From contig SVIZ01000006.1 in assembly GCA_015069205.1 (NCBI GenBank), positions 124,001 to 188,000 on the forward strand: a stretch of 64,000 nt of DNA, in the 5' to 3' direction. Made by a program: the position numbers and the translations under genes. Under the pieces are notes generated by a model, which ran no database searches, was not told the DNA's origin, and worked only from the letters and a program-made list of their open reading frames with translations. Each line of letters begins with the position of its first letter. The stretch's first letter is position 1. Below are positions 34,023 through 45,584 of the stretch, piece after piece. This DNA comes from Oscillospiraceae bacterium. Lineage in GTDB: Bacteria; Bacillota; Clostridia; Saccharofermentanales; Saccharofermentanaceae.

Positions 34023-35945
34023 TCATGCCTGTTGGGTGAGAACAGGGAATGACAGTGACACTTTGAAGAGATCTCCATCTATATCGATCCTAAATGAGCC
34101 GCCCTGAAGTTCGGTCATGCTCTTGGCGATCGAAAGGCCGAGACCGTTACCTTCTGTGTTTCTGGACTGATCGCCTCTTACGAAACGCTCAACAAGTTCG
34201 TCAGCGCTGATATTGAGTTCTGCGCTCGAAGTGTTTTTGAATGTGGTGACTGCCTGATTGCCTTGGACTTCAAGTGACAGGTAAACTCTGGTTCCGGGCT
34301 GGGCATACTTGCAGATGTTGTTCATGAGATTGTCGTAGATCCTCATCATGCGTCTGCCGTCTGCCATGATCATTACAGGTCCTTCGGGTGCGTTCGTTAT
34401 AAGATTCAGATTGGATGCTTCGAGCTTCTCTTTAAATTCTCCAGCAGTCTGGGATACGAATGTTACAGCGTCAAGAGGAGCGGGAACGATCTCAAGGTTG
34501 CCCGTTGAAGCCTTGGATGCTTCAACGAGATCTTCTATAAGTCTCTTTAGTTTATCTGACTGTCTTACAACAACTTCGGAATACTCTGCCATCTTGGGAT
34601 CAGAAGGATCAGTGGTTCCCATGAGTGAAGCGTAGTTGATGATCGATGTAAGAGGTGTCTTGATGTCATGTGAGACATTTGTGATGAGCTCTGTTTTCAT
34701 GCGCTCTGACTTAAGTCTTTCTTCTACTGCGATAGTAACTGAATCAGAAACATTGTTGAGGTTAAGAGCGTGTTTTTTGAAGTCTCCCCAGAGTCCTTTG
34801 GTGCTTACGCGGTAAGTGATATCGCCTTCTGCGATCTTATCTCCTGCAATCTTAAGTTTTCTGAGCATAAAGGCAATATAAAGAATGAACGGGCAGAGGA
34901 TGAGTTTTTCGAAAAACCAACCTATTGAGATCACATCAGATTCAAACCCCGAACCGGCCATTACTATGATTTCGACAAATGATAATCCTGCAACGAAAAG
35001 GACTGTTCTCCAGATGAGAGGTATCGAAAGAATGCCTTTGATAATGAGCTTGAAGAGTTTTCCTATCAGCATGATTATCTTATACACAAGTAATCCCTTG
35101 ATAAGTGAGTGAAGCTTAACTCGTGCAGCAAATGCCACGCATAATCCGAGCATCATGTTCAAGACCAGCAAGATCAGTAATATGCTCATGACGATCTCGA
35201 GCCTTCCGGGTGCAGCGCCTGCAATGAGCACTCCGATGGATGAGACAAAAATGAAGCCTGCTAAAAGAAGATCGAAAGGGATCTTTCCGGTAGGACCTAA
35301 ACAGATTTCATCAGAACCCGGCTTTTTACCGGTGACACACATGAGAGCAACAAATGCAGCGATGCCTGCGATCACGCAGATTATGGCAACAGGGTAGACT
35401 ATATAGCGGGTGCTTATAACCAGGTGGATCACCTGTTTGTCGAATGCAGAGTATTTTGATAAGGCCAATGAATCAGCATATGCGTTGACTGTGGCTTCGA
35501 CCACTGTATCGCCGGGTTCAGAATAATTGTCATGAGAGTGTTTGTATTCTCCGTTTTTATCGTAAACAAGTCTCATATCGAATGTGTAGAGCTTGTAATT
35601 CTCGAATTCTCCGGGCTTACCTGCAGCTTCTGATACATCCTTATAATCACGTGTGGATGTGATCAGTTTGCCGTCTTTGTCCTTAACTTCGATGCTGATG
35701 TTTTCGACATGATAATTCTGGATGCCGAGAAGATTCTCTGTCTCACTCATCGCGGTATAGTAGATGAATGATTCATCATTTTTCTGATAGAACTCTTCTT
35801 CGGTTATATCGTAAAGATCTTCCTGTATGCATACTACCGATGCACATACACATCCGAAAGTGACTATCACTAAGATGTTGATGATAAGGAACAGCAGGAA
35901 TTTTCCCGGAACTGTCCTTAAAAACTGATTCTTCTTGTTTTCCAT
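34023..35945 (-). CDS. Multi-pass membrane sensor histidine kinase
   Basis: 640 aa; several TMs; H-box LITNVSHDIKTPLTSIINYASLM; ATPase GNGLGLSIAKSMTELQGGSF. Confidence 0.93.
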   Translation of the reverse strand: MENKKNQFLRTVPGKFLLFLIINILVIVTFGCVCASVVCIQEDLYDITEEEFYQKNDESFIYYTAMSETENLLGIQNYHVENISIEVKDKDGKLITSTRDYKDVSEAAGKPGEFENYKLYTFDMRLVYDKNGEYKHSHDNYSEPGDTVVEATVNAYADSLALSKYSAFDKQVIHLVISTRYIVYPVAIICVIAGIAAFVALMCVTGKKPGSDEICLGPTGKIPFDLLLAGFIFVSSIGVLIAGAAPGRLEIVMSILLILLVLNMMLGLCVAFAARVKLHSLIKGLLVYKIIMLIGKLFKLIIKGILSIPLIWRTVLFVAGLSFVEIIVMAGSGFESDVISIGWFFEKLILCPFILYIAFMLRKLKIAGDKIAEGDITYRVSTKGLWGDFKKHALNLNNVSDSVTIAVEERLKSERMKTELITNVSHDIKTPLTSIINYASLMGTTDPSDPKMAEYSEVVVRQSDKLKRLIEDLVEASKASTGNLEIVPAPLDAVTFVSQTAGEFKEKLEASNLNLITNAPEGPVMIMADGRRMMRIYDNLMNNICKYAQPGTRVYLSLEVQGNQAVTTFKNTSSAELNISADELVERFVRGDQSRNTEGNGLGLSIAKSMTELQGGSFRIDIDGDLFKVSLSFPVLTQQA

Positions 35946-36644
35946 TAGTTTCTCCCCTTCTCGATCTTATAACCCTGGCCGAAGATAACTTTTATGTATC
36001 TCGGTTCATTGGGTGTGATCTCAACCTTTTCTCTAAGATGTCTGATATGTACCGCAACGGTGTTTTCGCCTGCTGACAAAGCGCTTTCGCCCCATACCTT
36101 GCTGTATATCTCTTTGGGCGAGAAGACTTTGCCGGGATATTCCATAAGCAGCTTTAATATGTCGAACTCTGTGGGGGTGAGGCTGACGGCGTTTCCGTCT
36201 ACCGTAACGGTCTTGGTGGTGTCATCAAGTTCGATCCCGCCGACCGTAAGAAGTTCTTTGGCAGCTGTTCCTGAGCCGAGCTTGGTGTAGCGTCTGAGCT
36301 GTGATCCTACTCTTGCGGCAACCTCCAGGGGGTTAAAGGGCTTGGTGATATAATCATCAGCCCCTATGTTAAGTCCCAATATCTTGTCCTGGTCCTCTGA
36401 CTTCGCGGTTAAGAGGATGATGGGCATATTGAACTTCTCCCTGATCTTTGCCATCGCTGTTATCCCGTCCATTTGCGGCATCATGATATCCATCAGTATG
36501 AGATGTATGTCTTCCTTCTCAACAAGTTCTGTTGCTTCGACACCGTTAAATGCCTCGAAAAGCCTGTAATCCGGATTCTGCAGGTAGATCTTCAGAGCGT
36601 TTACGATATCTTTGTCGTCATCACAAATGAGAATGTTATACATG
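35945..36644 (-). CDS. OmpR-family response regulator
   Basis: MYNILICDDDKDIVNALKIYL; LILMDIMMPQMDGI; winged-helix VWGESALSAGENTVAVHIRHLREKVE. Start chosen at ATG 36644 behind a G-rich site. Confidence 0.94.
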
Positions 36645-36787
36645 TTTCCCCCCACACTGTTTCAAGATAATGAAATTCTACGGATAAAAGCCTTAATATC
36701 AAATGACTTAATTCCTTAAGATTTGATTAAGTCTGCAAGTTTATGGCAAAATATCCCCTGAAAAAAATAATATAAGGTAAAAGATAA

Positions 36788-37531: not shown

Positions 37532-39055
37532 TTATTGCGGCCGGCTTCCTCTATCACCTCCCGGAAAAGCACCGGGATCACCGCCCGGCATCATTCCGCC
37601 GGGACCAAAACCTGAACCTCCGCCGGAGATATTGTCCTCAAGTACTATTGTCTCTTCGTAATTTCCTGCCGTAAAGGTATAGTTATTGCCTGTGACAAGC
37701 TCCGGACTGCTGATAAGCACTGTCTGGTAAGAACAATCTGCCGTTACCTTTATTATTTCATTTCCTGAAGGATCTGTAACACAGATCTCGGTCCCTTCGG
37801 ACTGGCTTCCTGTATTTATAAGCATTGTACCCTGTGAAGCGCTTGTAAAGTTCGTTGCCATACCTGATGCACCTGCCATTACTACTGTACCGCCTGTGAT
37901 AACAGCGTTTCCGTTGACATCCAGGGAACCGTTGCCGCTTCTGGTAGGACCCATAACAACAAGCGTTCCGCCGTTCATCTCAAATGAACCGTTGGAATCT
38001 ATGCCGTCTCCTTCAGTTCTTACATAGAGCTCGCCGCCATTGATCACCAGTGTTGTGGCACTGTCTGCCTGCATTGTCTCACCAGATGGAGATACCGCAT
38101 TTATTGCATCGTCTGATGAGACTATTGAGATGCTGCCGCCGTTAAGCGTTATGTTCCGGGCTTCTATGCCTTCGTAGGAATTTGTTATGTTTACCGTGCC
38201 GTCATCTATCTGAAGTGAAGAAACAGCTGTCAGGCCGTCATCTCCTGCATCGATAGTTATATTTCCGGATGAGACGAAAATATATCCCTTTGACTCATCT
38301 TCATCGTTGTCAGACTGGATGCCGTCTTTTCCGCAGGTGATATTAACATCCGCATTCTGTACGGATACGGAATCCTTTCCCTGAATGCCGTCCTTTTCAC
38401 TTGTTACGGTAACCGTGCCGCCTGTGACCATGATGTCATCCTTGCCGACGATGCCGTGTCCGGTTGATTCGACATTAAGAGATCCGGAACCGTTGATCGT
38501 AAGATCTGTTTTCGCGAAGATCGCACCGTCAACACTGTTGTCATCCTTGGAATCGAACTCGCCGGTGTTTGCCAGAAGGTTCTCTGTACCGTCTTCCAAA
38601 GTGATATAGACATTATCGGCATTAAGGCAGTAGAGAGCTGCATAATCGGATGACGTGATGTTTGCATTCTTCAGTACGATCCTTATATCATCTGAATCTC
38701 CGGCATCGACTACTATATATCCGTCATCCAGAGTTCCTGTGAATACATAAGTACCTTTGCCCTTGATCGTGATAACAGAACCGTCAATCTGAACTGAAGA
38801 TGAATCTGTTACGGCAGAAGAACCCGTAAGTGTAATGGTCTCTGATTCCGTTTCATCGTAACCTGTCTCAAGGTCCTTATCCGTGAAAGCCTCTTCCGAG
38901 GTGATCGATGTCGAGGCAGCAGTTGATTCCGGTGATGAAGTGCTTGTAGTTCCTGATGCCGAAGTTGTCCCGGAACATGCTGTAAGTGTGGTGACTAAAA
39001 GTGCGCCTGCTGCAAGCATTGCCAAAATCTTATGATCTGTCTTAAAACGTTTCAT
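37532..39055 (-). CDS. Lipoprotein with right-handed beta-helix carbohydrate-binding domain (DUF4353 / Cthe_2159-like)
   Basis: 507 aa; lipobox LLVTTLTACS; repeats such as DLTINGSGSLNVES, DDIMVTGGTVTVTSEKDGIQGKDSVSVQNADVNITCGKDGIQ; Gly/Pro-rich C-tail. Confidence 0.85.
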   Translation of the reverse strand: MKRFKTDHKILAMLAAGALLVTTLTACSGTTSASGTTSTSSPESTAASTSITSEEAFTDKDLETGYDETESETITLTGSSAVTDSSSVQIDGSVITIKGKGTYVFTGTLDDGYIVVDAGDSDDIRIVLKNANITSSDYAALYCLNADNVYITLEDGTENLLANTGEFDSKDDNSVDGAIFAKTDLTINGSGSLNVESTGHGIVGKDDIMVTGGTVTVTSEKDGIQGKDSVSVQNADVNITCGKDGIQSDNDEDESKGYIFVSSGNITIDAGDDGLTAVSSLQIDDGTVNITNSYEGIEARNITLNGGSISIVSSDDAINAVSPSGETMQADSATTLVINGGELYVRTEGDGIDSNGSFEMNGGTLVVMGPTRSGNGSLDVNGNAVITGGTVVMAGASGMATNFTSASQGTMLINTGSQSEGTEICVTDPSGNEIIKVTADCSYQTVLISSPELVTGNNYTFTAGNYEETIVLEDNISGGGSGFGPGGMMPGGDPGAFPGGDRGSRPQ

Positions 39056-39081
39056 GTTGTTTCTCCTTTCATTTCCGGCTG

Positions 39082-39762
39082 TTAAAGCTGGTCTGTGTTC
39101 TGAATCTGATATTCCGCAAGGGAGATCTCGAGATTGCCGTTCCTTGTGCGGAGCTGGTCTATGAATTCTTTCTCGATCGAAGGATCGGTGAGGACTATCT
39201 CATAACTGAGTTTATAGAGCGAACCCATATTGCTGGTCTTTACCTGTTTTAACTTGTAGGACTTAGTGTATTTTTCAAGGAATTCATCGAATACATCCGA
39301 ATAGTTAAGGTTTTCCGGGATCGTTATCTTAAGGATCTTACGGGTGCTCTTTTTCCCGTCCGCCGAAAACCTTGAGTACATGAGTATCGCAAGACCTATG
39401 AGGCAGGTGAAGAGGGCGGCATATCCGATATATCCCATTCCCATGATGAGACCCATTCCCATGACTGCAAAGATCGCACCGATCTCTCTTGCCGTTCCCG
39501 GTGCCGACCTGAACCTTACGAGGCTGAACGTTCCGGCTACTGCAACGCCTGCACCGATATTGCCGTTGACCATGAGGATGACCACGCAGATAACTGCCGG
39601 GAGTATCGCAAGAGTCATGACAAAGCTCTTGGTGTAGTCATTGCGGTATGTGTGGATCAGGGCCATGATCCCGCCGAGCACAAGAGACACAAGGACGAGA
39701 ATGATGAATACTAAAGGTGTTATTCCTGTTGAAGGGATTATCGAATTAAAAAGATTAAGCAT
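39082..39762 (-). CDS. DUF4956-type membrane protein
   Basis: 226 aa; several TMs (LVFIILVLVSLVLGGIMALIHTYRND, SFVMTLAILPAVICVVILMVNGNIGAGVAVAGTFSLVRFRSAPGTAREIGAIFAVMGMGLIMGMG). Confidence 0.82.
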   Translation of the reverse strand: MLNLFNSIIPSTGITPLVFIILVLVSLVLGGIMALIHTYRNDYTKSFVMTLAILPAVICVVILMVNGNIGAGVAVAGTFSLVRFRSAPGTAREIGAIFAVMGMGLIMGMGYIGYAALFTCLIGLAILMYSRFSADGKKSTRKILKITIPENLNYSDVFDEFLEKYTKSYKLKQVKTSNMGSLYKLSYEIVLTDPSIEKEFIDQLRTRNGNLEISLAEYQIQNTDQL

Positions 39763-40480
39763 AGTAAACGTTCCTTTCCGGATATTGATCTGCTATCAAA
39801 TGTTCTTTGTAGTAAGTTCCGTATTTTGAATAGGTGACTTTCCGTATATTGTTCTCACTTAAGAAATGCGCCATCCACATAGGCATTGCGCCCGATATCT
39901 TTATTTCCATAAGTGTTGTGCCTGAAGGAAGAAGTGAGTGTCCCCATATATCGCTTCCGAGATCGAGTTCGGTATTTCTTGCGAGTATGTTCTCATCAAG
40001 TGTCAGTCTGAATCCCGGATCTTCCTTATCGAAATATGCTTCGCGTTCGTAACTGATAAATGCCTTTGCCTCTATGCCTTCGTAAAACCTGAGAAAGTAA
40101 TCTATCTCAGATGTGATCTGGTTCTTAAAAGGAATCTCTTTCCTTTTATCTATCCAGTCGCAGGCAGCCGTCTTGGGGATTGCAACACGTCTTTTATAGA
40201 CGACGCTTTCAAACTTCTTTTTGATCTCGACGAAGACCACATCACTCTCATCTGTTCTCTGATAGGACCTTACTCTCAGCTTCTCTTTGTAGACCGGGTG
40301 ATCCAATGAGTCTCTTATGAGCCTGAAACTGTCCGTGTCGTAGTAGATGTTCCTGATCGTTGTCCTTCCAAACTGATCGAGCACTAATCTGTCTTTCGTC
40401 TCTTCCAGAAGTTCTTTTTTCTGAGAGGGCGTGAGAAAGAATTTATATTCATATCTTTCGAAAACATCCTGGTATGACAT
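39755..40480 (-). CDS. VTC-domain (polyphosphate polymerase-like) protein
   Basis: 241 aa; FERYEYKFFLTPSQKKEL, KEKLRVRSYQ, VVFVEIKKKFESVVYKRRV, FISYEREAYF, FRLTLDENI, LMEIKISGAMPMWM; tunnel-type basic/acidic motifs. Confidence 0.87.
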   Translation of the reverse strand: MSYQDVFERYEYKFFLTPSQKKELLEETKDRLVLDQFGRTTIRNIYYDTDSFRLIRDSLDHPVYKEKLRVRSYQRTDESDVVFVEIKKKFESVVYKRRVAIPKTAACDWIDKRKEIPFKNQITSEIDYFLRFYEGIEAKAFISYEREAYFDKEDPGFRLTLDENILARNTELDLGSDIWGHSLLPSGTTLMEIKISGAMPMWMAHFLSENNIRKVTYSKYGTYYKEHLIADQYPERNVYYA

Positions 40481-40493
40481 GATTTTTAAACCT

Positions 40494-40537
40494 CGTTTAA
40501 GTTTGTTGCCCTAATCTTAGGGTGCAAACTTAAAACG
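40494..40537. promoter_or_regulatory. Long imperfect inverted repeat just upstream of the VTC gene
   Basis: CGTTTAAGTTTGttgCCCTAA tc TTAGGGtgCAAACTTaAAACG. Confidence 0.7.
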
Positions 40538-40578
40538 GACTTTAAAGCAAACGCATGAAAATTGAGTGAAAGGAAACT

Positions 40579-40652: not shown

Positions 40653-41327
40653 ATGAGAATTCTTTTGGCAGAAGACGAGAGATCTTTATCTAAAGCTCTG
40701 AAAGCGATACTTACTAAGAGCAACTATTCCGTTGACTGTGTTTTCGACGGTGAAGAAGCCGTCTCATATGCTATGGCGAGTGAATATGATCTTGTGATTA
40801 TGGATATCATGATGCCGAAGCAGGACGGAATATCCGCATTAAAGGAGATCAGGTCAAAAGGCAACAGTGTTCCTGTTCTTATGCTCACCGCCAAAGCTGA
40901 GATCGATGATAAAGTCGAAGGACTGGATTCAGGTGCCAATGACTATCTGACAAAGCCTTTTGCGACAAAAGAGCTCCTGGCAAGGATAAGAGTGCTTACA
41001 AGACAGCCTCAGTCTGCAGGCGACAACATCTTAAAGTTCGGAAATCTTACACTGGACAGGGGAAGCTTCGAGCTCTCTTCTCCCAAGGGAAAATACAGAC
41101 TTGCCGGCAAGGAATTCCAGATGATGGAAATGCTTATGATGAATCCCGGGATACTTATATCGACGGAGAAGTTCATGGATAAGATATGGGGCATTGATTC
41201 TGAAGCAGATATCAGCACGGCATGGACGTATATATCGTATTTAAGAAAGAAGCTTACCGCTCTGGAAGCTGATGTCCAGATAAAGGCAGTAAGAAATTCC
41301 GGTTATACTCTGGAGGCGGTCAAATGA
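40653..41327 (+). CDS. OmpR-family response regulator
   Basis: 224 aa; MRILLAEDERSLSKALKAIL; LVIMDIMMPKQDGISAL; C-terminal winged helix. Confidence 0.95.
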   Translation: MRILLAEDERSLSKALKAILTKSNYSVDCVFDGEEAVSYAMASEYDLVIMDIMMPKQDGISALKEIRSKGNSVPVLMLTAKAEIDDKVEGLDSGANDYLTKPFATKELLARIRVLTRQPQSAGDNILKFGNLTLDRGSFELSSPKGKYRLAGKEFQMMEMLMMNPGILISTEKFMDKIWGIDSEADISTAWTYISYLRKKLTALEADVQIKAVRNSGYTLEAVK

Positions 41328-42589
41328 TCAGTAAACTCCGCAGAAAATTCATAATCATATCCATGCTGTCGGTTACTTTGGTGCTTACGGTTCTGATCGC
41401 AGCCATCAATATCTTTAACTACCGTAAAGTAATCAATAATGCTGATGATGTCCTCAATATACTTGAAGCCAACGAAGGTGAGTTTCCGCCCGATACGAAT
41501 CCCGATCCTCCAAGAGACGGGCAGTTTGGAGACCATGGCGGCGGTAGAAAAGATCATGGCGGAGAGATGTCTCCCGAGATGAGATTCGAAGTGAGATTTT
41601 TTACGATCACTTTTGATAAGAACGGCAATGTCACTGAGATCGACACGGGAAAGATAGCAGCTGTTGACACTTCAAATGCAAGAGCTCTTGCCGAATCTGT
41701 ATATGCGGGCGGTAAGACCAAAGGTTTTGAAGGTGATTACAGATTCAGAAGAAGTGAATACGGCGATGAGACACTGATCGTTTTTTACGACTGCGGAAGA
41801 AGTCTTGATAATGCAAGATCTTTTCTGGGAATAAGTGCAGTCATCTCCCTGATCGGACTGCTCGTAGTTTTCGTATTAATAGCAGTATCTTCAAAAGCCG
41901 TTATAAGACCTGTTGCCGAAGCTTATGAAAAGCAGAAGAGATTCATCACCGATGCGGGCCATGAACTCAAGACGCCTCTGGCAGTTATCAATGCTGACTG
42001 TGATGTGCTTGAATTAGAGGACCAGGACGGTGAAAACGAATGGCTCTCGGACATAAGAAAGCAGACAGAAAAACTTACGGTGCTGACCGAAAGGCTTATC
42101 TATCTTGCAAAGACAGAAGAAGGCTCTAAAACAGAACTTGTTAAAATTGATTTCCCGTTGTCGGATGTTTTATCGGAGGAGACAGATTCCTTCAAAGGGC
42201 TTGCGAGATCTTCAGGTAAAACAATAGAGACAGATATTGCTTCAGGAATCACATACAATGGTGACCAGAAAGCAATTGCAGAACTGATATCGATCCTTAT
42301 TGATAATGCGGTCAAGTATTCTCCTGAAGAAAGCACGATAAAAGTCTCGCTAAAAAAGAATAATTCAAAAGTAATGCTTTCCGTGAGCAACGATACAAAA
42401 GAGACCATGTCAAAAGAAGACCTTGCCCACATGTTTGACAGGTTCTACAGAACTGATAAGTCGAGAAATTCAGAGACCGGAGGATACGGGATCGGCCTTT
42501 CAATAGCAAAAGGGATTACTGAATCTCACGGCGGCAGGATCTATGCATCCGGAAGTGAAAAAGAGATAACAATAACGGCTGAACTTTGA
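41324..42589 (+). CDS. Sensor histidine kinase
   Basis: 421 aa; two TMs, extracytoplasmic region with DHGGGRKDHGG; H-box FITDAGHELKTPLAVINADCDVLE; GGYGIGLSIAKGITESHGG. Confidence 0.95.
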   Translation: MISKLRRKFIIISMLSVTLVLTVLIAAINIFNYRKVINNADDVLNILEANEGEFPPDTNPDPPRDGQFGDHGGGRKDHGGEMSPEMRFEVRFFTITFDKNGNVTEIDTGKIAAVDTSNARALAESVYAGGKTKGFEGDYRFRRSEYGDETLIVFYDCGRSLDNARSFLGISAVISLIGLLVVFVLIAVSSKAVIRPVAEAYEKQKRFITDAGHELKTPLAVINADCDVLELEDQDGENEWLSDIRKQTEKLTVLTERLIYLAKTEEGSKTELVKIDFPLSDVLSEETDSFKGLARSSGKTIETDIASGITYNGDQKAIAELISILIDNAVKYSPEESTIKVSLKKNNSKVMLSVSNDTKETMSKEDLAHMFDRFYRTDKSRNSETGGYGIGLSIAKGITESHGGRIYASGSEKEITITAEL

Positions 42590-42608: not shown

Positions 42609-45584
42609 TCAATGGAGGAATTCGAAACTCAAAAGTGAAGGATTGCCCATTCCCTTGAATGTGAGATACAGGGGATATACACCATCCGGTATAGTGAATT
42701 CGGCTTTGTTGTCGGTCCATGCCGTGCAGAAGTCAACGCCGATCGTACCTAATACTTCACCGTCAATTGAGGTCCTTATCTCAAACTCACCTTTGCCGTA
42801 ACCTCTGGTGGTGATCCTTAACCCCTTTACACCTTTGAGATCGAAATACTTGAATCCTACCGTCGTATTCTCATAGATGTCTCTGATATAGGAAGGATCT
42901 TTTTCGCCGTCCTGGTGATCTTTTGTGATGTTTGCTTCGTGGAGCTCTCCGACATACATCTCCTCTTTATCGTTGAAGATGTTGCATGCGATCTGCGAAG
43001 AGTATTCTTCTGTGTCACGGAGCGGGCCGCCGTTAAGGCCGCATGATGTGATCTCGACCTGGGCAATCTGTCCGTTCTCATCAAATGAGATCTTCTCTGC
43101 GCATCCCTGACGTGAATACCATGAGTTGTTCGTCTGTCTGTGATAGAAGATATACCAGTCGTCACCAATCTGAACGATGCTTCCGTGATTGTTTGCACCG
43201 AATGCAGCAGGCTTTTGTGCGGGCTTATAAGAATCGATTCCGATATCGCAGTTGCTTACGATGACTCCGCCGTACTTGAATGGTCCGAGCGGATTATCGG
43301 AATAACCGTAGCAGAGTTCGTGCATCACCTGTGAAGAATAGATGAGGTAGAAGATACCATTTCTTTCTCTTATGGAAGGAGCTTCGAAGAACGCGTGACC
43401 TTCGTATTCCGTTCCCTTGCTGTGCTGTGTTGAAGGGATAACAAATTCAGGTGCTCGTTTGATCGTAAGCATGTCCTTATCAAGAACGGTTACCATGCAT
43501 CCATGACGTGAAGCATCACCCTGACCGCAGAATCCGGTGTACATATATGTCGTGTCACCAATGGTGATGACGCCCGGATCGAACTGCTGTTCGTCTCCTT
43601 CCTTTCTGCCAAGGACAGTGCCGTCTTCGTAGTGGACATTTCCTATGAATTCGAACTTGCCTGAAGGTGAATCCGATACGGCAACTGAGATAACGCAGTC
43701 ATTATCCAGTGCATAGAACAGATAGTATCTGCCGTCAGGTCCGACTGTCATGTCAGGTGCATAAAGGCATCCTCTGTTATCTGCATTATGGGGATCATCA
43801 GTTCTCTTGAAGATAACGCCTTCATAAGTCCAGTTGCCGAGATCATCGACAGGTGCTGACCAGGTAACATAATCTCCAAGACAGAATGCGTAGCCGTTGA
43901 AGAAGTCGTGTGAACCGTAAACATATACTCTGTTGTTGAATACATAAGGCTCACCGTCAGGAATGTATTCCCAGTTGGGAAGGTAAGGGTTGAATGCCTG
44001 CTTTTTCGGAACTTCATAAAGAGCTACCTTAGGTCCTTCTGCCTCAGCTTTGATCTCAGCGGCTTCCCCGACAGTAGCTTCTGCGATGTGCTCGGTCATG
44101 AAGGTATAGAAATCAGATTCGGGAGAATCTTCCTGGACGGTTGTCTTCGCACCGTCTCTTGTGAAGTGCATCTCGTTCTTGAAATCAGGTGTGAAAGGTT
44201 TCCACAAAGGCAGAGCCGTACCGTCGACATCCTTTCCGTTCGGATCGCCGTTCTTAATGAAGTTGACGAAATACGTGCTCATCTGTCTTGCGATGTCGAA
44301 GTGCCTTCCGGTCACGGGTCTCCAGCACTTGCCGAGGTTATCGAAGAAGAACCACAGATCTACGGAGTGGAATGTGCCCGGATTGTCGTCGCCCGGGATA
44401 TCGGGTTCGAAGCAGTAGTAATAACCCGGCTTGTCGTTATGTGCAAACGCAGCTTTGACGGCGCATTCGATTGCACGGAGCGTTGCGTACTGGTTGCCGT
44501 TGTTTTTCTGTGCTTCTGGGAATGAGAGGAATTTCTCAGTCTTGGAGCCGAATATCTCTCTTGCCTTGGCTTCGAACTCTTCCTTTGAACCGGCGAAGAT
44601 AGAACTGGGGAATTCATCGTAGGTGTTGCCCGACATGAGCGGAACGTGTGCATGCTTTCCTTCAAGGAACAGCTTGTAAGGTTCATCGTCCATGAAGACG
44701 TTGTCTATCATGGGCGTGAAGAAGTAGCTCTCTGCTTCCCTGAATTTTGAAGCATTGTCACGGATGAATGAAGCATCGAGTTTTCTTGCTTCTTCCAATG
44801 TCTTTACACCGAGCTGCTCGAAAAACTTTACACCGTATGAACATGCATCATCGGCAGTCCTGGGGATCATTACAAAGTCTTTAATGTAAGGGAATGAAAT
44901 GATCCCCGAGAGGATGATGGCTCTCTGATAAAGTCCGATGCTTGATTTGGCAGTCAGGTGGTTCAGAACGCTTCCTCCGCCTGCAGACTGGCCTGCGATC
45001 GTGATGTTGTCAGGATCACCACCAAATGCAGCGATGTTTCTTATTACCCATTTAAGTCCTGCCTGCTGGTCCAGAAGACCGAAGTTTGCAGGTGCTTCAG
45101 GAGACTCTTGGAAAAGCTCGGGGTGGGCAAGGAAACCGAATGCGCCGAGTCTGTAGTTTACTGATACGACAACGATGCCTTTCTTTGCGAGGTTCTCACC
45201 GTTGAACTCCATCTCTGCGGTATATCCCCACTGGAATCCGCCGCCGAAGAACCATACGAGCACCGGAAGCTTTTCATCGGCGCTCCTGGCATTTGTCCAG
45301 ACATTCAGATAGAGGCAGTCTTCATTGATCTCGATATCCGGATCAACATGCCACTCTCTGCAGTAGATGTCTGTTCCGATACCCGGCTGGTCCTGCATGG
45401 AGATCGGCGCGAATTTATATGCGTCGTAGATGCCGTCCCAATCCTTACAGGGCTGGGGAGCCTTCCAGCGGTTGCTGCCTACAGGCGGCTGGGCAAAAGG
45501 GATTCCTTTAAAAACTGAGATTCTTGTGTTGTTTCCGGGAAGACCTCTAACGAGTCCGTTCTCGGTTTTTACTATCTTTAACAT
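42609..45584 (-). CDS. Fusion: carboxylesterase (type B) + glycoside hydrolase family 43-like domain + C-terminal CBM6-like domain
   Basis: 991 aa; esterase GQSAGGGSV and FHSVDLWFFF; GH43-like YVFNNRVYVYGSHDFF, LYAPDMTVGPDGRYYLFYAL, YEGHAFFEAPSIRERNGIFYLIYS; C-terminal beta-rich NTTVGFKYFDLKGVKGLRITTRGYGKGEFEIRTS. No signal peptide. Confidence 0.88.
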   Translation of the reverse strand: MLKIVKTENGLVRGLPGNNTRISVFKGIPFAQPPVGSNRWKAPQPCKDWDGIYDAYKFAPISMQDQPGIGTDIYCREWHVDPDIEINEDCLYLNVWTNARSADEKLPVLVWFFGGGFQWGYTAEMEFNGENLAKKGIVVVSVNYRLGAFGFLAHPELFQESPEAPANFGLLDQQAGLKWVIRNIAAFGGDPDNITIAGQSAGGGSVLNHLTAKSSIGLYQRAIILSGIISFPYIKDFVMIPRTADDACSYGVKFFEQLGVKTLEEARKLDASFIRDNASKFREAESYFFTPMIDNVFMDDEPYKLFLEGKHAHVPLMSGNTYDEFPSSIFAGSKEEFEAKAREIFGSKTEKFLSFPEAQKNNGNQYATLRAIECAVKAAFAHNDKPGYYYCFEPDIPGDDNPGTFHSVDLWFFFDNLGKCWRPVTGRHFDIARQMSTYFVNFIKNGDPNGKDVDGTALPLWKPFTPDFKNEMHFTRDGAKTTVQEDSPESDFYTFMTEHIAEATVGEAAEIKAEAEGPKVALYEVPKKQAFNPYLPNWEYIPDGEPYVFNNRVYVYGSHDFFNGYAFCLGDYVTWSAPVDDLGNWTYEGVIFKRTDDPHNADNRGCLYAPDMTVGPDGRYYLFYALDNDCVISVAVSDSPSGKFEFIGNVHYEDGTVLGRKEGDEQQFDPGVITIGDTTYMYTGFCGQGDASRHGCMVTVLDKDMLTIKRAPEFVIPSTQHSKGTEYEGHAFFEAPSIRERNGIFYLIYSSQVMHELCYGYSDNPLGPFKYGGVIVSNCDIGIDSYKPAQKPAAFGANNHGSIVQIGDDWYIFYHRQTNNSWYSRQGCAEKISFDENGQIAQVEITSCGLNGGPLRDTEEYSSQIACNIFNDKEEMYVGELHEANITKDHQDGEKDPSYIRDIYENTTVGFKYFDLKGVKGLRITTRGYGKGEFEIRTSIDGEVLGTIGVDFCTAWTDNKAEFTIPDGVYPLYLTFKGMGNPSLLSFEFLH

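Follow-up and report, generated by a model that had tools for sequence, protein, structure and literature searches.

VTC polymerases are usually regarded as eukaryotic (e.g. PMC13318637). Genes with a VTC domain are also annotated in prokaryotes, and we found no biochemical test of their products in the literature. Among bacteria, a related gene set, cotH-PPP-DUF4956(-DUF4832), has been described as accessory to the Pel loci of Gram-positive species (PMC7112168), and the corresponding genes of S. intermedius (SIR_1592-1594) have been deleted (PMC12345266). In one medium, loss of either the DUF4956 or the CotH gene brought aggregation down to less than half; the amount of Pel was raised by loss of DUF4956 and lowered by loss of CotH, while both aggregation and Pel remained after deletion of the VTC gene SIR_1593 (PMC12345266). 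The three-gene arrangement was reported as not found outside Pel loci (PMC12345266). The CotH version is also present in NELoc-2 of C. perfringens (PMC2879425), where the VTC gene is followed by the gene of a membrane protein of about 225 aa annotated as 'tubulin/FtsZ' and then by CotH. Judged by its position and size, this membrane protein is probably DUF4956.

The locus described here lies in a 64-kb stretch of DNA (the window) from a genome of 2.69 Mb. It shares the VTC-DUF4956 pair with the Pel accessory set but differs from it in the third gene, which codes for a Cthe_2159-type lipoprotein instead of CotH, in that no PelG-like gene was found within the sampled flanks of loci of this type, and in the presence of a two-component system and a candidate regulatory box. 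The genes found downstream in NELoc-2, i.e. those of a 685-aa protein, a HEAT-repeat protein and a glycosyltransferase, are missing in the window. The first-pass annotation of this DNA suggested an undescribed surface-polymer system. This is true in part: the CotH version has been described, both in Pel loci (PMC7112168) and by way of the S. intermedius deletion mutants (PMC12345266), whereas in the literature we found no description of the Cthe_2159 version, of the exchange of partners or of the regulatory box.

It is also useful to compare the locus to the eukaryotic VTC complex (yeast Vtc4). The tunnel fold, a nearly identical set of active-site residues and a membrane partner tightly coupled to the enzyme are common to both. 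On the other hand, the 241-aa protein of the window consists of the VTC domain only and lacks an SPX domain, its membrane partner is of a DUF4956/MgtC-like type instead of a VTC membrane domain (Vtc1 type), and genes of exported partners and of a two-component system are added. The analogy to the VTC complex that was drawn earlier is valid for the catalytic domain, with respect to both fold and residues of Vtc4, but does not extend to the membrane protein, a predicted MgtC relative for which no link to the VTC membrane domain was detected.

The operon and its proteins

The three genes are located on the minus strand. They encode a VTC-domain protein, i.e. a triphosphate-tunnel, polymerase-like enzyme (39755..40480, 241 aa; Pfam VTC, 125.4 bits, cut-off 23), a DUF4956 membrane protein (39082..39762, 226 aa; Pfam DUF4956, 58.4 bits, cut-off 30.6) and a Cthe_2159-type beta-helix lipoprotein, the exchangeable surface partner (37532..39055, 507 aa; PF14262, 244.4 bits, cut-off 25.8). 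The VTC and DUF4956 reading frames overlap by 8 bp (39755-39762), and 26 bp separate DUF4956 from the lipoprotein gene. The gene content, the placement and the overlap given in the first-pass annotation are borne out by the ORF coordinates and by Pfam scores far over the cut-offs; the four motifs listed there (YEYKF, KLRVRS, VEIKKK and MEIK) are all present in the VTC protein, and the exported, Cthe_2159-type nature of the lipoprotein agrees with its Pfam score and with a signal peptide that contains the lipobox LTAC. The VTC protein has relatives in a Ruminococcaceae MAG (RUG13324; 98% identity) and in a Mageeibacillus MAG (55% identity), which points to a Clostridia bacterium, probably one of the rumen, as the source.

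A search of the PDB with the single VTC sequence gave no match and a profile was therefore needed; that of 48 VTC proteins matched yeast Vtc4 (E 1.3e-19). The AlphaFold2 model of the VTC protein (pLDDT 92.5) has Vtc4 (3g3r) as its closest PDB structure in a fold search (E 7.5e-13, TM 0.73), CYTH enzymes being a poorer match (E 3e-8). The alignment of the 48 diverse proteins contains 21 invariant columns. Residues K13, R69, R71, K87, K96 and R146 of the VTC protein correspond to K200, R264, R266, K281, K294 and R361 of Vtc4, and R158, E192, K194, S218 and K219 to R373, E426, K428, S457 and K458, respectively. With the exception of T198, which is replaced by E11, the mapped tunnel residues of Vtc4 are kept, and in the 48 proteins they vary little or not at all. 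On this residue map the catalytic residues are intact. They include the positions of R264, R266 and E426, and Vtc4 is inactivated by R264A/R266A/E426N (PMC9911596).

In hydrolase-type tunnel enzymes such as YgiF, the second metal is held by three glutamates (PMC4641920). In the VTC protein two of the three are replaced by R9 and K194, as in Vtc4, and the remaining one is kept as E11 (the correspondence was established by motif). Lys458 of Vtc4 is important for polymerase activity and of little weight for hydrolase activity (PMC4641920). The replacement of two metal-site glutamates alongside a retained E11 favours a polymerase over a hydrolase, without settling the question.

The DUF4956 protein is, by profile alignment, a distant relative of MgtC and unlike the VTC membrane domain. 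The hhalign comparison covers nearly the whole length (98.1%, E 1.1e-13, 198 columns), and the annotation of SIR_1592 (PMC12345266) agrees with this relationship. The DUF4956 protein of the window's genome gave no match to Pfam MgtC (PF02308) at E 0.001, and several other VTC-linked DUF4956 proteins match this family just below the cut-off. A helical membrane domain followed by a ferredoxin/ACT-like domain is common to DUF4956 and the MgtC/SapB family; the two differ in that the DUF4956 proteins stay under the Pfam MgtC cut-off and in that the GxGFLGAG region of MgtC aligns with a region of DUF4956 that bears an arginine-containing SxVRFR motif. R83 and R85 belong to the best conserved positions of DUF4956, and the positive-inside rule would place them on the cytoplasmic side. 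The AF2 model consists of five long helices and a C-terminal ferredoxin/ACT-like domain. No significant match to a PDB structure, VTC complexes included, and no known channel fold was found for this model; the nearest structures, PII-like regulators, concern the C-terminal domain and are not significant.

The lipoprotein shares its beta-helix domain with Cthe_2159 (PDB 4peu, 4phb; E 4.3e-34 against 4peu). It differs from Cthe_2159 in having a lipid anchor and a Gly/Pro/Asp-rich tail and in being encoded in an operon with VTC-DUF4956.

Pairing of VTC with DUF4956 and exchange of the third gene

The neighbourhood was analysed in a sample of 196 genomes of the class, where genes within 4 kb were taken as neighbours and 116 full-length VTC genes were found. 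DUF4956 is a neighbour of VTC in 109 of the 116 cases, and it is located downstream on the same strand in 108 of these 109 pairs; most of the 7 VTC genes without a DUF4956 neighbour are close to contig ends. About half of the sampled genomes (97 of 196) carry a full-length VTC gene, DUF4956 is also present in 95 of these 97, and no genome among the 196 has DUF4956 over the cut-off without VTC. The distance matrices of the two proteins are correlated with r 0.91 (97 pairs; permutation maximum 0.06), the value for VTC and the linked kinase being 0.51 in a subset of 29. The pairing is near-obligate, the grouping of VTC, DUF4956 and a third gene is not due to chance, and the conserved neighbourhood anticipated in the first-pass annotation is a reality. 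Long VTC reading frames in two loci (L182, L172) were considered as VTC-DUF4956 fusions, and were discarded, since their length seems to be an artefact of choosing starts mechanically. For scanning contigs for VTC, the profile of 48 proteins was too diverse, and a closer set of 19 worked. In six loci (L016, L021, L024, L026, L031 and L033) the gene directly before VTC codes for an apparently exported protein of about 285 aa with a metallo-beta-lactamase fold.

The three genes are part of a larger module that is far more widely spread than a single operon shows. Outside the class, VTC-DUF4956 is accompanied by CotH in Nonomuraea (Actinomycetota), by Cthe_2159 and a divergent two-component system in Paenibacillus, and by CotH, HEAT and glycosyltransferase genes in Planococcus. 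The latter set (L231, 5389-12069), in which VTC-DUF4956-CotH precedes the HEAT-repeat and glycosyltransferase genes, is found on a 67-kb plasmid of Planococcus maritimus, so VTC-DUF4956-CotH can be plasmid-borne. Corynebacterium glutamicum, Methanosarcina acetivorans and a Bacteroides control genome encode both families (presence only).

With 4 kb again as the limit, CotH is the third gene at 47 of the 109 VTC-DUF4956 pairs and Cthe_2159 at 31, and neither is present at the remaining 31; no pair has both. The CotH-like kinases to which the first-pass annotation had pointed are thus an alternative third partner. If the two types were independent, the probability of zero overlap would be 3e-10, a value that is too strong because the loci share ancestry and the third-gene position. 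The 31 pairs that have neither partner count against a reading in terms of exchangeable partners. A wider search returned a single locus (L189) with both Cthe_2159 and CotH genes, placed before VTC-DUF4956. On a tree of 113 VTC proteins, a quick and approximate one, both partner types are present in both main clades, and at least 9 switches between CotH and Cthe_2159 are found.

One of these exchanges left a trace in the protein itself. The N-terminal anchor of the Cthe_2159 protein of locus L093 matches the anchors of the CotH partners of related loci (E 8e-10 to 1e-5 in a phmmer comparison among about 1500 N-termini, the next unrelated match being at 0.08), which we read as an ectodomain replaced behind a retained anchor at least once. 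This is the one clear case in which the membrane anchor appears to have been kept while the ectodomain changed; two other Cthe_2159 proteins (L071, L108) carry a CotH-type anchor more weakly. All three loci belong to the VTC clade other than that of the window, and the signal peptide of the window's lipoprotein has no clear link to the CotH anchors.

As to the connection with Pel, 3 of 48 CotH loci contain PelG within 8-kb flanks, 9 contain a glycosyltransferase-linked cluster and 36 contain neither; the first two counts are lower bounds because contig ends cut the flanks. The sampled flanks of 30 Cthe_2159-type loci, the window's included, have no PelG-cluster genes.

Possible functions of the module

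The explanation we consider best is that the operon encodes a synthase that couples the making of a phosphate polymer to its export and has a surface partner of exchangeable type, i.e. a minimal bacterial counterpart of the VTC machine, and we would put the chances of this being correct at about even. The cytoplasmic VTC enzyme would polymerise phosphate from a nucleotide triphosphate in an obligate complex with DUF4956, which would receive the anionic chain at its arginine-bearing cytoplasmic face and move it across the membrane. The exported third protein would then handle the chain or the surrounding matrix; in the window this partner, a beta-helix with a lipid anchor, would bind either the polymer or a polysaccharide, and in other genomes its position is taken by a CotH-type kinase. 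The direct-repeat box that precedes VTC may be where the divergent two-component system acts to switch the operon on.

Several observations count against a polymer synthase: the hydrolase-type glutamate E11 where Vtc4 has T198, the lack of a clear effect of the SIR_1593 deletion (PMC12345266) and, as regards the coupling to export, the lack of a fold match of DUF4956 to a known channel. Moreover, a PPK1 gene is present in the window's genome (G000:C19:57113-57712), so the cell has another polyphosphate route. The idea that VTC substitutes for a missing PPK1 was rejected, since PPK1 is present here and the two genes are distributed independently in the genomes of the class (PPK1 was not detected in 60 of the 97 VTC genomes).

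The main rival to the synthase is a regulatory role in matrix production, where the module makes no polymer and instead regulates envelope or exopolysaccharide production: VTC would sense or bind polyphosphate or a nucleotide, DUF4956 would act in an MgtC-like manner on the ATP/phosphate balance, and the exported partner would tune matrix assembly. This is consistent with the MgtC relationship of DUF4956 and its ferredoxin/ACT-like, presumably cytoplasmic domain with PII-like regulators as nearest (not significant) structures, with the 12 CotH loci that adjoin Pel or a glycosyltransferase-linked cluster, and with the S. intermedius mutants, in which loss of DUF4956 increases Pel and decreases aggregation, loss of CotH decreases both, and loss of VTC is without clear effect (PMC12345266). 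We nevertheless consider it rather unlikely, as the tunnel residues, that at the position of Lys458 (PMC4641920) among them, show little or no variation even between highly diverged proteins, and as a polysaccharide synthase is absent from the sampled surroundings of most loci. The VTC protein could also be a tunnel-type tri- or polyphosphate hydrolase or a nucleotidyl cyclase that recycles the phosphate by-product of surface polymer synthesis, given that the fold is common to CYTH enzymes and the metal-site glutamate E11 is present; the invariant Arg9 and Lys194, which as in Vtc4 take the place of two of the three second-metal-site glutamates, and the clearly better structural match to Vtc4 than to CYTH enzymes make this improbable. 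Finally, many Cthe_2159 proteins are encoded away from VTC, as would be expected if the operon served an ordinary carbohydrate-binding lipoprotein, with VTC and DUF4956 as bystanders. This last possibility appears very remote to us in view of the nearly universal VTC-DUF4956 pairing, the usually fixed partner position at VTC loci, the N-terminal anchor that was conserved across an ectodomain switch, and the recurrence of the window-type architecture in Paenibacillus.

Returning to the export-coupled synthase, the conserved set is, on the evidence of its sequences, a good candidate for bacterial phosphate-polymer synthesis at the cell surface. If polyphosphate synthesis is coupled to export, many gut Clostridia would own an overlooked route for extracellular phosphate polymer. 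A more specific version, which is highly speculative and which we regard with considerable doubt, would be that VTC-DUF4956 makes and exports polyphosphate, that CotH partners draw phosphate from it for the phosphorylation of surface targets, ATP being scarce there, and that Cthe_2159 partners hold it in the wall or matrix; if exported partners do use polyphosphate, the module would amount to a phosphate-polymer system of the cell surface that is of general use and whose outputs can be swapped. In any case, the supposed Pel accessory set becomes a module of general occurrence, whose core is defined, whose output is of two alternative kinds and for which there is a candidate operator; with these defined, its function is directly testable.

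The divergent two-component system and the candidate box

The first-pass annotation overlooked a divergent two-component system (40653-42589, plus strand) that starts 172 bp from VTC and belongs to the conserved neighbourhood. It consists of an OmpR/PhoB-type response regulator (40653..41327, 224 aa; Pfam Response_reg and Trans_reg_C) and a sensor histidine kinase with a conserved N-terminal sensor region (41324..42589, 421 aa; Pfam HisKA/HATPase). Response regulators are found near VTC in 40 of 115 loci; counted by gene slot, they occupy 44 of 622 slots close to VTC as compared to 8 of 591 that are far from it. About 50 VTC-linked kinases have a sensor region homologous to that of the window's kinase. 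We rejected the view that the system is exclusive to VTC loci, since of the 38 copies of the sensor region in the sampled genomes of the class only 10 lie close to VTC; this lack of exclusivity counts against the regulatory part of our explanation. Two further copies adjoin Cthe_2159 genes with no VTC close by (G014:C65, G008:C7), and a congener in which VTC, DUF4956 and Cthe_2159 were not detected (G179) still has a related sensor kinase.

Upstream of VTC we found a candidate response-regulator box that consists of two 11-bp direct repeats, TTTAAAGTCCG/TTTTAAGTTTG (40525..40546, minus strand), 45 bp from the VTC start. The pattern TTTAAGGTTnnTTTAAGGTT was derived from the upstream regions of the closest relatives and then scored everywhere; the copy in the window matches it at 14 of 18 positions. 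Matches of at least 14/18 are enriched upstream of VTC genes, being present in 38% of those adjacent to a response regulator and 23% of the other VTC genes as opposed to 0.7% of 1453 other genes, percentages that include the relatives that defined the pattern. Three perfect copies all come from the class sample, which had no part in defining it. An inverted repeat, TTTAAGTTTG...CAAACTTAAA (40496..40534), overlaps the box; it was found by repeat search and its arms are kept in loci L118 and L119.

A second two-component system is located at 34023-36655 in the window. Among the loci that were searched, only L105, L118 and L119 have a match to its 640-aa kinase, and the system was set aside as a part of the module since the sensor matched close relatives only. 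On the other side of the locus, at 42609-45584, there is a 991-aa ORF in which, read by eye, a carboxylesterase appears to be joined to a family-43-like glycoside hydrolase domain.
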